Part shown: piece after piece, positions 10,673-29,455 of the stretch
How the letters are laid out: the number at the start of each line of letters is the position of its first letter
Position numbering within the stretch: the stretch's first letter is position 1
NCBI GenBank assembly: GCA_937935075.1
Contig: CALGYB010000107.1
Location: 1 to 45,068 of the forward strand
DNA from: an uncultured Roseiflexus sp.
Lineage (GTDB): Bacteria > Chloroflexota > Chloroflexia > Chloroflexales > Roseiflexaceae
DNA: 45,068 nucleotides
Direction: 5' to 3'
Translations under genes and position numbers: made by a program
The notes under the pieces: generated by a model
What the model was told of the DNA's origin: nothing
What the model saw: the letters and a program-made list of their open reading frames with translations, nothing else
Databases searched by the model: none

Positions 10673-11419
10673 ATGACCACACGACCGGCGTTGGCGCAGG
10701 AGATCGCCGATGCGCAACGAACGATCAGCGCGCTGACCGAAGAAATCACTGCTACCCGCAGTTATATCAGCGCCAATGAACAGGCGCTCCAGAGCCAGCC
10801 GCCGTCGCTGCGCGCCATCACCGAAGAAGGGCTGGCAAAGGCGCGCGCAAACCTGGCGCGCAAAGAGGCGGAATTGCAGATTGCCCAGCAGACCCTGGCA
10901 AATGCCCAGCGCACCCTGGCGAAGGTCGAGGAGATTGAGCGCAAACAGGGGGAAATCCGCAAACTCGAACAGGACCTGGCGACGATCAATGCGCTCCTTG
11001 AGCGCGCGCGCGGCGAACTCTCCCGCCTCGAAGGCGAATTGCTCGCCATGACCGCTCCGGTCGCGGTTCCTGCGTTTGCCCTGGCGCTGAGTGATGGGCG
11101 ATCCATTCCGCTGCCGACCGACCGCGCTGAGTTGCTGATCGGGTGCCAGGACGCGGCGGACAGTATCTTTCCCGACGTTGACCTCGCGCCTTTCGATGGG
11201 CGCACGAGCGGCGTCAGTCGGCGCCATGCGACTCTGCGCTATGCCGGCGGTCAGTGGACGATCACCGATCTCGGCAGCGCCAATGGGACGTTTGTGAATG
11301 ATAAGGCGCTGACGCCGCATACGCCGACGGTTCTGCCCGAAGGTTCGGTTGTTCGCCTTGGCGCTTTCGTCGTCACCTTTCGCTCGCTGGCGCCGAATAA
11401 AACGGTACGGCTCTCATGA
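10673..11419 (+). CDS. Coiled-coil protein with C-terminal FHA domain
   Basis: A 248-aa cytoplasmic protein. Residues 1-120 are a long heptad-rich coiled coil (many E/Q/A/L, no Pro). Residues about 145-248 form a forkhead-associated domain, with the phosphothreonine-binding signature SRRHATL, then ITDLGSANGTFVN and a final beta strand. ATG at 10673 follows GGAGG (10662-10666). Its stop overlaps the bchD start (ATGA), which implies translational coupling and probably a joint function. FHA domains read phospho-threonine, so a Ser/Thr-kinase signal could reach the chelatase subunit (inference). Confidence 0.88.
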   Translation: MTTRPALAQEIADAQRTISALTEEITATRSYISANEQALQSQPPSLRAITEEGLAKARANLARKEAELQIAQQTLANAQRTLAKVEEIERKQGEIRKLEQDLATINALLERARGELSRLEGELLAMTAPVAVPAFALALSDGRSIPLPTDRAELLIGCQDAADSIFPDVDLAPFDGRTSGVSRRHATLRYAGGQWTITDLGSANGTFVNDKALTPHTPTVLPEGSVVRLGAFVVTFRSLAPNKTVRLS

Positions 11420-13239
11420 CTGCGCTTTCACTCGCTGCACTTGTTGGTCTGGAATTGGCGCAGCAGGCGCTGCTCCTGCTGGCGGTCGAGCCGCGCCTGC
11501 GCGGCATCGCCGTCGGCGCGCCGGCGGGCGCGGGAAAGAGCAGCCTGGCGCGCGGCATGCGCGATCTGCTCTGCACTGGCGAGCGGTCGGTTCCGTTCGT
11601 GGAACTGCCGCTCGGCGTGGACGAAGCCGGATTGCTTGGCGGACTCGACATTGAGGCGACGCTGCGCGCCGGAAGGCGGGTGGCGCGCGCGGGGGCGCTG
11701 GCGCGCGCCGATGGCGGCATTCTCTATGCCGATCAGGTCAATCTGCTGCCCGACGCAATTATCAATCCGCTGATCGCCGCCATCGATACAGGCGAGGTGC
11801 GGCTCGAACGCGAGGGTCTCAGCATTCAGGCGCCGGCGCGCTTCGTTTTCATCGGCTCCTACGACCCCGCCGAAGGTCTGCCGCGCCGTCATCTGCTCGA
11901 CCGGTTAGGGTTGTTGCTGGTGTTGCCGCGCGCGATGAATGAACAGGCGCGCGCCGAGGTGGTGCGGCGCAACCTGGACCCGGCAGCGACGCAGGCGTAT
12001 GCCGACGACCTCGATCTGCTGCGCGGGCTGGTGCAGGCGGCGCGTGAACAGTTGCCGCAGGTGCGGATCGAGGACGAGCAGATCGAACAGTTGGTGGCGA
12101 TGGCGGCGCTCTGCGGCGTTGAGGGGCACCGCGCCGACGCTTTTGCGGTGTATGCCGCCTGTGCTGCGGCAGCCCTCGGCTTGCGCGACCATGTTGAACA
12201 GGAAGACCTGGAACTGGCGGTGCGGCTGGTCATTCTGCCACGCGCGACACGTCTGCCGCCTCCGCCGGAACCGCCGCCGGACGAAGAACCGCCGCCTCCG
12301 CCGCCCCCCTCCGACGCCGAGAGCGATACCGCTGACGCGCCGCCTGAGCCGCCGTCGGAAGATGAGTTGACCATTCCGCCTGAACAGGTGCTCAGCGCGC
12401 TGGCTGCCGAACTGCCGGTCGAACTGGAGCAGTTGCCATTCCGGGCGCTACGCCGTGGGAAGACCGGGTCGCGCGGCACGGTGGCGGGGAAGCGGGGACG
12501 GCACATTCGCAGCATTCCCGGTGATCCGCGACGTGGACGGATCGACGTATCCGCCACGCTACGCGCGGCTGCGCCATTCCAGCCGTTGCGCCGCGCTCAG
12601 GCGGACGCAAACGTTGCGTCCGCCAGGGTGCTGTTGCGCGGCGACGATCTACGCATCAAGCAGTACCGCAGCAAGGCGGGGGCGCTGTTCCTCTTTGCGG
12701 TCGACGCCAGCGGCAGCATGGCGCTGCACCGCATGCGTCAGGCGAAAGGGGCGGTGCATGCGCTTCTTCAGCGAGCGTATGTCCACCGCGACCGTGTGGC
12801 GCTGCTGGCGTTTCGTGGACAAAACGCCGAATTGCTGCTGCCGCCGTCGCAGAGTGTCGAACTCGCGCGCCGCGCCCTCGATCTGCTGCCGACCGGCGGC
12901 GGCACGCCGCTGGCAGCGGCGCTCCTGGCAGCCATCGAGGTGGCGCAGCAGGCGCGCGCGCGCGGCATTATGCAGACGGTGCTGGTGCTACTCACCGATG
13001 GGCGGGCGAATGTCGGGCTGCGCGTCGGGCGCGAAGGGGTTGCCGACGAACTGCAAACCATCGGGCGCGCAGTGGCGGCGGCGGGCATTCAGACGATTGT
13101 GGTCGATACGCAGCGCACCTACCTGAGTCGCGGCGAAGCGCGCAAACTGGCGGAGTGGCTGGATGGCGAGTATGTTTACCTCCCCAATGCCCAGGGTGAA
13201 CAGATCGCCGCGCTGGCGGTTGATCGGGTGGAGCGGTAA
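11416..13239 (+). CDS. bchD: Magnesium chelatase subunit D (BchD)
   Basis: A 607-aa AAA+/VWA protein. The AAA+ part (1-270) has Walker A GAPAGAGKSS (34-43) and GGILYADQVNLL at the Walker B place. An acidic proline-rich linker lies at about 281-315. The VWA domain has the MIDAS sequence DASGSM (about 429-434) and LTDGRANVG. With BchI and BchH it inserts Mg into protoporphyrin IX, the first committed step of bacteriochlorophyll synthesis. The order AAA+, acidic linker, VWA is diagnostic for BchD, and RGRIDVSATLRAAAPFQPLR is typical. The Walker A is better preserved than in many BchD proteins. A 25-bp perfect palindrome interrupts the coding sequence at 12600-12624. Magnesium or cobalt chelatase-like CobT/ChlD relatives are the alternative. 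Confidence 0.85.
   Translation: MTALSLAALVGLELAQQALLLLAVEPRLRGIAVGAPAGAGKSSLARGMRDLLCTGERSVPFVELPLGVDEAGLLGGLDIEATLRAGRRVARAGALARADGGILYADQVNLLPDAIINPLIAAIDTGEVRLEREGLSIQAPARFVFIGSYDPAEGLPRRHLLDRLGLLLVLPRAMNEQARAEVVRRNLDPAATQAYADDLDLLRGLVQAAREQLPQVRIEDEQIEQLVAMAALCGVEGHRADAFAVYAACAAAALGLRDHVEQEDLELAVRLVILPRATRLPPPPEPPPDEEPPPPPPPSDAESDTADAPPEPPSEDELTIPPEQVLSALAAELPVELEQLPFRALRRGKTGSRGTVAGKRGRHIRSIPGDPRRGRIDVSATLRAAAPFQPLRRAQADANVASARVLLRGDDLRIKQYRSKAGALFLFAVDASGSMALHRMRQAKGAVHALLQRAYVHRDRVALLAFRGQNAELLLPPSQSVELARRALDLLPTGGGTPLAAALLAAIEVAQQARARGIMQTVLVLLTDGRANVGLRVGREGVADELQTIGRAVAAAGIQTIVVDTQRTYLSRGEARKLAEWLDGEYVYLPNAQGEQIAALAVDRVER
12600..12624. repeat. Perfect palindrome inside bchD
   Basis: GGCGGACGCAA (12600-12610), loop ACG, TTGCGTCCGCC (12614-12624). 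It encodes a short Ala/Asp/Asn stretch between linker and VWA domain, in frame. Confidence 0.85.
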
Positions 13240-13256
13240 GGCGCGTTTCTTCTGTT

Positions 13257-14612
13257 TTACCTCGCCACAACCGGCAGGAATGCCCTCGGTGTCAGCGGCG
13301 TCAGCGACTCGATGGCGGCAAACACATCGATGCGCGGCTTCGTCAGCCCATTGCGCGTGTCAGTGATCGGTACGCCAGTTGTGACCAGCGCGGCCACGTA
13401 GGCCTCCGGCGTATAACCGGGGCGCGCGCTGCGCAGTAGCGCGAGCGCCCCGGCGACGTGCGGCGCTGCCATTGATGTCCCCGATTTGGGCGCAAACCCG
13501 CCCCCCGGCACAGACGATGTGATCGCCACTCCTGGCGCCAGCAGGGTCAGGAACGACGCGCTGTTCGAGAACGACGCCACCTGCTCCGGCGTTGTCTTGG
13601 TCGTTGCGCCAACGCTGACGACGTTCGACAGACATGCGGGCAGGCTGAGGGCGCTGGCGCTGCCGCCGTTCCCCGAAGAGGCGACAGTGATGATCCCCCG
13701 ATTGCGCAGGACGGCAATGGCAGGTTTCAGGGCGGCGCCAACCCCGCTGCTTTCACACGCCGCAACACTGCCGAACGTTCCCGCGCCCACGCTCAGGTTC
13801 ACCGCTGCCAGCAGCGGGGTGAAGGAGGTTGACGCCAGCCAGTCGAGCGCGCGCAGTTGGTCGGAGACGTAGCTCAATACGCACGGCGAAGGGAGCGAGA
13901 ATGCCGAGCAGTTGGCGATCTTCGAAAAGATCTGCACGGCAATGATCGATGCTCCCGGCGCAACGCCGTCGTTCCCGGCGGCAATCCCGGCGACGTGTGT
14001 GCCGTGGTCGCATCCTGTAAACGCGCAAGATGCCGCTGCGCCAGGACCGATAACCTCGGTTCCTCCGCCGGGGCAAAGTGATGTTGCGCCATCACCGGAA
14101 TTGTTGGTCGAGAAACATGCTTCGGCGACCACGCGCCCGCCAAGAAAGGGGTGCGCGGCATCGACGCCGGTGTCGAGAATGGCAATCGCAACGCCAGAGC
14201 CGGTGGTCTCGGCATGCGCCTGATCGGCGTGGATCAGGGCAGTGCTGCCCGTCAGATGCGGCACAGCCAGCATATCCTCTACGACAGAGGCGACCTGCGG
14301 ATGATCGTCCAGCCGCTCGATTGCAGTGCGTGGCGCTTCCAGCACGATAACCGGAAGCGTGCGCAAACGGGCAACCTCGCGCGCGCCGGCGGCGGTTGCA
14401 GCGGCGACAACATCCTCCTGTGCCTGGGCAATGCCGGGGAGCGCCGTACTTGCATCACCCTCCGCCGCCGGCGCGCGCAGCACGACGATCACCCGCGTGC
14501 TGTCGGCAGACTCTGCTCGCCCCGAAGCGACTGGAAGGATCAGCGCGCCGATCACCAGGAAAACGAGAAGAAGGACCAAACGTGAAGAACGACGAGAGAA
14601 GGCAATTAACAT
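13257..14612 (-). CDS. Secreted subtilisin-like serine protease (S8)
   Basis: A 451-aa preproprotein. Signal peptide residues 1-31 (LVLLLVFLVIGALILPVASG), an inhibitor-I9-like propeptide (about 38-118), then the peptidase. The catalytic triad is visible: Asp147 in AILDTGVDAAHP, His203 in HGTHVAGIAAG, Ser380 in GTSMAAPHVAG. The oxyanion Asn lies in ASSGNGGSA. Cysteine pairs in the 166-237 region may be disulfides, fitting an extracellular enzyme. There is no extra C-terminal domain. It converges with bchD with only 17 bp between stops. ATG at 14612 precedes an obvious signal peptide; the ribosome site is weak. Confidence 0.92.
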   Translation of the reverse strand: MLIAFSRRSSRLVLLLVFLVIGALILPVASGRAESADSTRVIVVLRAPAAEGDASTALPGIAQAQEDVVAAATAAGAREVARLRTLPVIVLEAPRTAIERLDDHPQVASVVEDMLAVPHLTGSTALIHADQAHAETTGSGVAIAILDTGVDAAHPFLGGRVVAEACFSTNNSGDGATSLCPGGGTEVIGPGAAASCAFTGCDHGTHVAGIAAGNDGVAPGASIIAVQIFSKIANCSAFSLPSPCVLSYVSDQLRALDWLASTSFTPLLAAVNLSVGAGTFGSVAACESSGVGAALKPAIAVLRNRGIITVASSGNGGSASALSLPACLSNVVSVGATTKTTPEQVASFSNSASFLTLLAPGVAITSSVPGGGFAPKSGTSMAAPHVAGALALLRSARPGYTPEAYVAALVTTGVPITDTRNGLTKPRIDVFAAIESLTPLTPRAFLPVVAR

Positions 14613-26551: not shown

Positions 26552-26560
26552 TTCCGAAAA

Positions 26561-26652
<92 letters not shown>

Positions 26653-26714
26653 AACTGATGATGTGGTACGATAGCAGGGTAGCGCGCTCTCTGAAAAACG
26701 GAACCCAAACACCT

Positions 26715-27464
26715 ATGGATTTCACCGATCAGGTCGCAATCGTCATTGGCGGATCAGGCGCAATTGGCTCGGCTGTTGTGACCATGCTCGCAGAGCGTGG
26801 CGCGCGGGTGGTTGCGGGATATCACCAGAATGCTGCGGCGGCGGCGCAGGTGGTTGCCGCCTGCCAGGACATGCGCGGCGACGTATCTGTGCGTCAAGTC
26901 GATGCGCGCGATCCGCAATCGGTCGAGACGCTGGTCAGCGCCGTTATCGAAGCGTATGGACGGCTGGATGCAATCGTGTTCTGCGCGGGCGCCATGCGTT
27001 TCGCGCCGGTCGAAGCAATCAGTGTCGCGCAGTGGCGCGACATGCTGGCATTGCATCTTGATGGCGCCAGGAATGTTTGCCGTGCGGCGTTGCGCCGGAT
27101 GATGCGGCGGCGCTATGGCAGAATTGTTGCTGTTGCAGCGCTTCACGGATTGGCCGGCGGTCCACAGCAGGCCGATTTCTCGGCGGCTACCGGCGGTGTG
27201 TTGGGATTGGTGCGGACGCTGGCACGCGAGGCGGCGCCCTGGAATATCACTGTCAACGCCGTCGCACCCGGTTTTATCGAGACGCCGCAACTGAATACTA
27301 TCCCCGAGGAGATGCGCCTGTGGGGGGAACAGGTGATTGCACTGCGGCGTATCGGGCGTCCGGAGGAAGTGGCGGCGGCGATTGTCTTTCTGTCATCGCC
27401 GCTTGCGTCGTACATCACCGGGCAGACGCTGGTGGTGGATGGAGGGTGGCGTATGGCGCCATAA
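26715..27464 (+). CDS. SDR-family protein lacking the catalytic tetrad
   Basis: A 249-aa Rossmann protein of the FabG-like short-chain dehydrogenase family. The nucleotide loop GGSGAIG (12-18) and the FSSP-like C-terminal [10 protein letters not shown] and [11 protein letters not shown] are kept. At every catalytic place the residue differs when aligned with FabG: Asn to His114, Ser to Ala142, Tyr to Phe155, Lys to Thr159 ([19 protein letters not shown]). The frame is intact, so this looks like a non-catalytic NAD(P)-binding paralogue rather than a relic. ATG at 26715; the open frame upstream only runs through the palindrome array. No partner gene is obvious. Confidence 0.85.
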
Positions 27465-27937: not shown

Positions 27938-29413
27938 TTATGCGGCATCTGCCAGAACTCGTTCGGCGGCAGCGCGCCCTGAGAGGAGCACGAGCGGAAT
28001 ACCGCCGCCGGGGTGCGTGCCGCCGCCGACGAAGTAGACGCCGCGTACCTCGCGCGCGCGGAGCGGCGGACGCACGAATGCCGTCCATGGGTTGTTCGAC
28101 GCCAACCCGTAGATCGCGCCTCCAGGAGCGTTGTATCGCTCGTTGATCGTTGCCGGCGTCCAGATCTGCTCGAATACAATATGCTGGCTCAGATTCTCCA
28201 GCCCCATATGCTCCAGTTTGTGCAGCACCAGGTTGCGATAACCGGTCGCTTCGCGCGTCCAGTTGACGCGCGGGTTGAGCGCTGGCGCGTTGATCAGCAC
28301 AAACAGGTTCATCTGTCCTGGCGGCGCCATCGATGGGTCGGTCACCGATGCGGCACAGACATAGATCGTCGGGTCGGGCGCCGGTGTCTGCATATCGACG
28401 ATTGCCCTGAACTCGTCGCGGTAGTTGGACGAGAAGAAAATATTGTGATGCGCCAGAGCGGGGTAAATGCGATCAATTCCCAGCAGCAGAACGAATCCGC
28501 TGTACGATGACTCAAGCTGTGCCAGGCGCGCTGCGGTTTTTTCTGTGCCGGGCAGCAGGCTGGCATAGGCGTAGCGCGGATCGGCGTTGACAATCACCTG
28601 CGACGCGGCCAGTCGCTCGCCGCCTGCCAGAACGACGCCAGAAGCGGCGCCGTTGTGGACCTCGATGCGTTCGACCGGCGCATTGGTGCGAATCTCCACG
28701 CCGAGATCGCACGCCAGCGCCGCCAGCGCGCGCGCAATCTGATACATTCCGCCAGCGACGTGCCAGGCGCCCTGGACAAACTCGACATAAGGAATCAGGT
28801 TGAATGTAGCCGGCGCGCGGAAGGGTGACGAGCCGTTGTATGAAGCGTAACGGTTGAACACCTGGCGCAGGTAGGGGCTGCGGAAGAAACTGCGCACTGC
28901 CTGATCAACGGTGCGAAACGGGTCGATCTGAAGCATTCCACTGAATAGATCAGGGGTCAGCAGGTCACGCACGCCGTCGAATGGGCGTAGCAGGAATGGA
29001 CCTTCTGCGGCGCGGTAAATGCGTTCGGCGTAGCTCAGAAATTGGAGAAAGCCGGCAACATCGGCAGGTTCGATGCGCGCGATCTCCTCGGCAAGGCGGG
29101 GCAGATTCTGGCAGGCGTCGAACTGTGTGCCATCAAGCCAGCGATACCGGCAGATCGGTTCGAGTTGCGTGATGGTCAGCGAGTCTTCCATCCGCCGCCC
29201 GGCAGCGGCAAAGACTGACCGCAGCACCCAGGGCATGGTCAGTAACGAAGGTCCGGTGTCGAATCGGAACCCATCGGCTTCGACCAGGTTCAGTTTGCCG
29301 CCGACGCGCTCATTCTTTTCGAGCAGCACAACGCGCCGACCGCGCGCTGCCAGATGAATGGCGGCGGATAATCCGCCAAGCCCGCCGCCAATGATAAGGA
29401 TTGGAAGGTGCAT
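27938..29413 (-). CDS. Phytoene-desaturase-family FAD carotenoid oxidoreductase (CrtI-like)
   Basis: A 491-aa flavoprotein. The N-terminus is an FAD-binding Rossmann motif (ILIIGGGLGGLSAAIHLA, 5-22) followed by the LEKNERVGGKLN segment and FDTGPSLLTMP. The C-terminus has the carotenoid-enzyme signature FVGGGTHPGGGIPLVLLSG. CrtI, CrtN and CrtO-like ketolases share this fold; the length and the HPGGG motif favour a CrtI/CrtN desaturase. Start chosen at ATG 29413, which has AAAGGA upstream and begins the FAD motif; the frame above it runs through a direct repeat. Peripheral membrane enzyme of carotenoid synthesis, expected in a phototroph. Confidence 0.88.
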   Translation of the reverse strand: MHLPILIIGGGLGGLSAAIHLAARGRRVVLLEKNERVGGKLNLVEADGFRFDTGPSLLTMPWVLRSVFAAAGRRMEDSLTITQLEPICRYRWLDGTQFDACQNLPRLAEEIARIEPADVAGFLQFLSYAERIYRAAEGPFLLRPFDGVRDLLTPDLFSGMLQIDPFRTVDQAVRSFFRSPYLRQVFNRYASYNGSSPFRAPATFNLIPYVEFVQGAWHVAGGMYQIARALAALACDLGVEIRTNAPVERIEVHNGAASGVVLAGGERLAASQVIVNADPRYAYASLLPGTEKTAARLAQLESSYSGFVLLLGIDRIYPALAHHNIFFSSNYRDEFRAIVDMQTPAPDPTIYVCAASVTDPSMAPPGQMNLFVLINAPALNPRVNWTREATGYRNLVLHKLEHMGLENLSQHIVFEQIWTPATINERYNAPGGAIYGLASNNPWTAFVRPPLRAREVRGVYFVGGGTHPGGGIPLVLLSGRAAAERVLADAA

Positions 29414-29455
29414 ATCGGTATCCTTTTCTGAAACACGTGTGTTTGTGAATAGTGT

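Follow-up and report, generated by a model that had tools for sequence, protein, structure and literature searches.

Introduction

Dead subunits in SDR enzymes and FabG-like reductases with two different subunits both have precedent. The title of reference 26 in PMC10818641 describes BbsCD as a heterotetrameric SDR with inactive pseudoenzyme subunits, and the human mitochondrial ketoacyl reductase HSD17B8/CBR4 (PDB 4cql, 4cqm) is reported as a heterotetramer (Venkatesan et al. 2014, cited in PMC6168690). In FabG of E. coli, which belongs to the same superfamily, Arg129 and Arg172 serve in ACP docking (PMC8007833). Few systems with dead SDR subunits are known, and in the open-access literature, with subscription papers largely outside the search, we found no paper on a pseudo-FabG or on the FabG of Chloroflexus or Roseiflexus.

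Here, we describe SDR2, a FabG-like protein encoded in a 45,068-nucleotide contig of an uncultured Roseiflexus sp. (CALGYB010000107.1, referred to in its entirety as the window), together with its intact paralogue SDR1. In our labels, f denotes families and g genera; organism names other than Roseiflexus, such as Chloroflexus, are presumed partly from general knowledge.

Results

A FabG-like fold without the catalytic residues

The gene for SDR2 (Table 1) translates into 249 residues with no internal stop, in agreement with the intact frame given in a preliminary description of this DNA. That description had also placed His114, Ala142, Phe155 and Thr159 at the Asn-Ser-Tyr-Lys positions by eye; when we aligned the protein to the FabG of the same genome and to FabGs of solved structure, exactly these residue numbers came out. 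A classical SDR tetrad, taken as at least Ser, Tyr and Lys, is thus absent. Two further departures, which the preliminary description did not list, concern the nucleotide motifs: instead of the classical TGxxxGxG and NNAG, the protein reads IGGSGAIG and FCAG. Relative to TGxxxGIG, it keeps G12 and G18 and has lost T11 and R15, both of which are invariant in SDR1 and FabG.

By its fold, SDR2 is nevertheless a member of the SDR superfamily. It matches the Pfam families adh_short_C2 (PF13561, 9.5e-56) and adh_short (PF00106, 9.3e-47), and a single-chain AlphaFold2 model, built from an alignment of the SDR2 clade, is confident overall (pLDDT 87.5, pTM 0.89), with low values at residues 145-147 and 244-249. 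In Foldseek, the model reaches a TM of about 0.93 to the FabG structure 2uvd, and fold matches to 1edo/2uvd have Z of about 36. Against the FabG equivalog TIGR01830, SDR2 scores 207.6 bits, below the cut-off of 297.75, which a separate, true FabG of the same genome passes with 337 bits (L003). Calling the fabD-adjacent gene of these genomes '3-oxoacyl-ACP reductase FabG' would be a misannotation.

Among 28 SDRs of the genome that were aligned together, only SDR2 of the window lacks all four tetrad residues, and Ser, Tyr and Lys are present in nearly all of the rest; an outlier, L217, may have FabI-type active-site spacing. Of the four positions, that of Asn is the most loosely constrained even in the ordinary SDRs of this genome, where it is occupied by N, M, T, H, S or P, so its loss means little. 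The real anomaly is the joint loss of Ser, Tyr and Lys.

The gap between SDR2 and an FtsX-like permease gene (26552-26714) contains short repeats, GGCATTGCCTTCGCCTACCCGTTGACAAT, in two to three copies, part of which form an inverted repeat.

Table 1. Features of the window discussed in the text, with positions in the window.
Feature	Position	Strand	Basis
SDR2, tetrad-less FabG-like protein, 249 aa, H114/A142/F155/T159	26715..27464	+	translation, Pfam, alignment
Nucleotide-binding glycine-rich loop, residues 10-19, without the canonical Thr and Arg	26742..26771	+	alignment
FCAG in place of NNAG motif, residues 89-92	26979..26990	+	alignment
His114, catalytic Asn position	27054..27056	+	alignment
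Basic end of helix alpha-E, residues 126-136, including R133	27090..27122	+	residue counts; E. coli FabG Arg129 from PMC8007833
Ala142, catalytic Ser position	27138..27140	+	alignment
Phe155, catalytic Tyr position	27177..27179	+	alignment
Thr159, catalytic Lys position	27189..27191	+	alignment
CrtI-like (phytoene desaturase-like, named from sequence), convergent neighbour of SDR2	27941..29437	-	synteny anchor, Roseiflexus and Chloroflexaceae

Conservation and stepwise loss in the SDR2 clade

Orthologs of SDR2 in five other Roseiflexus genomes are 81-89% identical to it, and every one of them carries His, Ala, Phe and Thr (HAFT) at the catalytic positions. Pairwise dN/dS is about 0.05-0.17 for SDR2, which is under purifying selection, and 0.04-0.08 for SDR1. 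Residue losses do build up towards Roseiflexus, as they might in a decaying pseudogene; given the same letters in six genomes, the frame that is open throughout and a dN/dS of about 0.1, however, we regard decay, or a sequencing or assembly error, as extremely unlikely. Conserved substitutions, purifying selection and the confident FabG-fold model instead bear out the pseudoenzyme with a preserved fold proposed in the preliminary description, which had named orthologs with a normal tetrad, or a sequencing error, as evidence to the contrary; the SDR2 clade contains no such ortholog.

This clade was delineated in a tree of 37 tetrad-less proteins, 34 intact paralogues and true FabGs from across Chloroflexales. 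SDR2, including the protein of the window, forms one clade (support 100/100), as does SDR1 (98/98), and the two jointly split from FabG and other SDRs (97/97). As the tree was midpoint-rooted and some outgroup rows are long, SDR1 is likely, rather than proven, to be the sister clade of SDR2. All 34 SDR1 proteins keep Ser, Tyr and Lys; many or most have Asp at the catalytic Asn position (DSYK, e.g. L140 8195-8938), and some from Roseiflexus have His.

In SDR2, both Ser (replaced by Ala or Gly) and Lys (replaced by Thr, Ala, Leu or Met) are lost in 37/37 proteins, the one from the window included. Tyr is still found in 22 of them, with separate losses in Roseiflexus together with g5, in Chloroflexus, in L155 and L159, and perhaps also in L158. 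Asn is retained in many and replaced by His in Roseiflexus and g5. The catalytic positions read HAFT, HAFM, NAYT, NAFA, TGYA, DGYA, MGYL, NGMA or NAVA; in the deeper members, Asn and Tyr persist, while Ser and Lys are always missing. This distribution indicates a stepwise loss in which Ser and Lys went first. The deep members are also nearer to the canonical nucleotide motifs, with TGGSRGIG, D63, PG and NCAG.

The retained Tyr in 22/37 proteins and the strong purifying selection would also suit an enzyme that uses the same pocket for a different mechanism, for instance a non-redox reaction on acyl thioesters. Such an alternative active site would not be expected to vary in its residues as the catalytic positions do within this clade, and we consider this explanation improbable.

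With an SDR2 profile, about 300 Chloroflexota genomes yielded no dead clade outside Chloroflexales, as all matches from outside the order that were opened are of the NSYK or DSYK type. Sampling beyond Chloroflexales was partial, with other phyla probed by one protein query, and as far as searched, the SDR2 clade is confined to this order.

Gene order

In the loci read from Chloroflexaceae, f3 and f4, SDR1 and SDR2 lie in tandem on the same strand behind fabH-fabD. Families f3 and f4 have the order fabH-fabD-SDR1-SDR2-fabG-accC-acpP, while in Chloroflexaceae fabH-fabD-SDR1-SDR2 is followed by a convergent crtI-like gene. Outside Roseiflexaceae, in most loci read, SDR1 and SDR2 overlap by one base at the closest and are separated by roughly 160 bases at the most; the gap is wider in G055. 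Within Roseiflexaceae, four genera (L116-L119) have fabH-fabD-SDR2, with SDR1 elsewhere, and in Roseiflexus, SDR2 faces crtI; in the genome of the window, fabH and fabD are on other contigs, and SDR1 (G000:C192:13278-14012, minus strand) is unlinked to SDR2.

The convergent arrangement of SDR2 and crtI is found in the window, in L110-L113, L115 and L120, and in the Chloroflexaceae loci L140-L144, L156, L157, L159, L175-L177, L179 and L033. This neighbor, which we use as a synteny anchor and do not propose as a part of the mechanism below, links SDR2 of the window to the fab operon found in related genomes. Its constancy throughout Roseiflexus and Chloroflexaceae might suggest that SDR2 of Roseiflexus, once outside the fab operon, took on a role with the carotenoid-type gene next to it. 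Yet the two genes are convergent and form no operon, other ORFs lie between them in L113, and their adjacency is older than the exit from the fab operon, so that it looks like inherited synteny; we therefore think co-option very unlikely. In L113 (G009, 10815-13503), several ORFs separate the two genes; by eye, at least one of them resembles a transposase, which suggests that a mobile element inserted here.

Co-inheritance of SDR1 and SDR2

Across 82 Chloroflexales genomes, SDR1 and SDR2 are encoded and inherited together: 48 genomes have both and 33 have neither. The one discordant genome, G008, is 71% complete and has SDR2 only. Co-occurrence gave a Fisher p of about 1e-20, a value calculated with G055 still scored as discordant and from genomes that are not independent; G055 was later rejected as an SDR1-only genome, its SDR2 being cut by a contig end. 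SDR1 is clearly set apart from FabG by score (4e-90 vs 9e-79). Genomes without either gene turn up in many genera and include G058, from the otherwise positive genus g25. Many genomes lack the pair, and the true FabG occurs independently of it, which marks the pair as accessory.

A function of the pair as PHB reductase was rejected, as the order-wide distribution of PHA synthase (TIGR01838) does not agree with that of the pair: matches, none of them above the family cut-off, occur in pair-less genomes and not in the pair-bearing f3 genomes.

G046 encodes two pairs, each in tandem (L158 3924-5414 and L159 7256-8736). The dead member of one pair is highly diverged, with a tree branch of about 2, and the presence of two pairs may reflect duplication, transfer or contamination of the bin. 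In G042 (L156 7708-9219), the SDR2 that follows SDR1 is split over two frames, possibly by a frameshift or a sequencing error.

Co-inheritance could mean one pathway rather than one complex, and adjacency alone can make tandem paralogues co-inherited. Roseiflexaceae, in which the pair is unlinked yet both genes are kept, answer the latter objection only in part; in Roseiflexus the two genes lie apart, and the window by itself gives no reason to assume that they are co-expressed.

The pairing also bears on whether SDR2 might act as a stand-alone regulator of fatty-acid synthesis, a nucleotide or acyl-ACP sensor that forms no stable heteromer with SDR1. SDR2 sits in the operon of this pathway, its deep members, with the motifs given above, may still bind a dinucleotide, and BssK, an atypical SDR without active-site residues, has been proposed as a regulator outside a complex (PMC7285207). 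A partner, however, better explains the strict pairing with one particular paralogue (48 vs 1), the nucleotide motifs are eroded in Roseiflexus, and SDR2 has no DNA-binding or other extra domain, all of which makes a regulator of this kind unlikely. Of the 'NAD(P)-sensing or structural' role that the preliminary description had suggested, the structural part fits, most likely in the form of a dead subunit that joins one specific intact SDR; NAD(P) sensing is disfavored for the Roseiflexus protein and may still apply to relatives with TGGSRGIG.

Residues at the ACP-docking positions

We take the catalytic residues of E. coli FabG to be Ser138, Tyr151 and Lys155; the constant offset of 4 from 142, 155 and 159 places the two docking arginines, Arg129 and Arg172, at positions 133 and 176 of SDR2. 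Position 133 is Arg in all 37 SDR2 proteins and in 16/19 FabGs, but in just 10/34 SDR1 proteins. Position 176 is Arg in 18/19 FabGs, Asp or Glu in 27/34 SDR1 proteins and Trp in 36/37 SDR2 proteins. This pattern suggests that carrier docking may have moved to the dead subunit in a division of labor. In SDR2, the Arg129-type basic patch is retained and the Arg172 position is occupied by a near-invariant Trp, while SDR1 has mostly lost both arginines. We tentatively envisage a ketoacyl-ACP reductase with split duties, in which SDR1 would perform the chemistry without an ACP-docking surface and SDR2 would present the carrier to its partner's active site; in this specific form, the idea is possible, if rather doubtful.

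Discussion

From what was read directly, that is, tetrad loss, conservation, clade membership, co-inheritance, tandem operon position, purifying selection and predicted fold, we infer that SDR2 of the window is probably a catalytically dead paralogue of FabG that combines with SDR1 into a heteromeric reductase, probably a tetramer, in which it is the non-catalytic subunit. SDR1 would provide the Ser-Tyr-Lys active site of the heteromer, and SDR2 would provide tetramer interfaces and probably also either a docking site for the substrate or ACP, or allosteric control, so that the complex would work in the manner of BbsCD. Because the pair sits in the fab operon of relatives, we propose a 3-oxoacyl (or 3-hydroxyacyl) thioester as the most likely substrate of the complex, whose reaction would belong to an accessory branch of type II fatty-acid synthesis, with the separate, ordinary FabG operating alongside it.

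SDR2 can be traced across an entire order, with a graded loss of residues, near-perfect inheritance with its partner and a place in a fatty-acid synthesis operon. Given that some of the groups that carry it have been brought into culture (Chloroflexus, Roseiflexus and probably Herpetosiphon), it offers a tractable case for why dead subunits persist.

Compared with the systems described so far, SDR2 is like FabG in its fold, its length, its best profile match and, in relatives, its genomic slot between fabD and fabG/accC, but differs from it in the missing Ser, Tyr and Lys, in its score below the TIGR01830 cut-off and in the presence of a true FabG elsewhere in the genome. The proposed SDR1/SDR2 complex resembles HSD17B8/CBR4, which combines two FabG-like SDRs into a heterotetramer for fatty-acid synthesis. 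HSD17B8/CBR4 chains are among the fold matches of the SDR2 model, at a Z of about 35 that many FabGs share, with no close sequence relation shown; unlike in our case, the title of 4cqm names bound NAD and NADP and that of the paper two activities, so that, by these sources, it is not a case of a dead subunit. BbsCD was not seen among the structural matches listed for the model, which carries no weight here. BbsCD resembles the pair in being two SDRs encoded in one operon, and the title of its paper reports a heterotetramer with inactive subunits, as we propose for SDR1 and SDR2. Whereas BbsCD belongs to a toluene-degradation pathway, SDR1 and SDR2 belong, outside Roseiflexaceae, to a fatty-acid synthesis operon, and in Chloroflexales, the dead subunit stands in the tree beside its own active partner.
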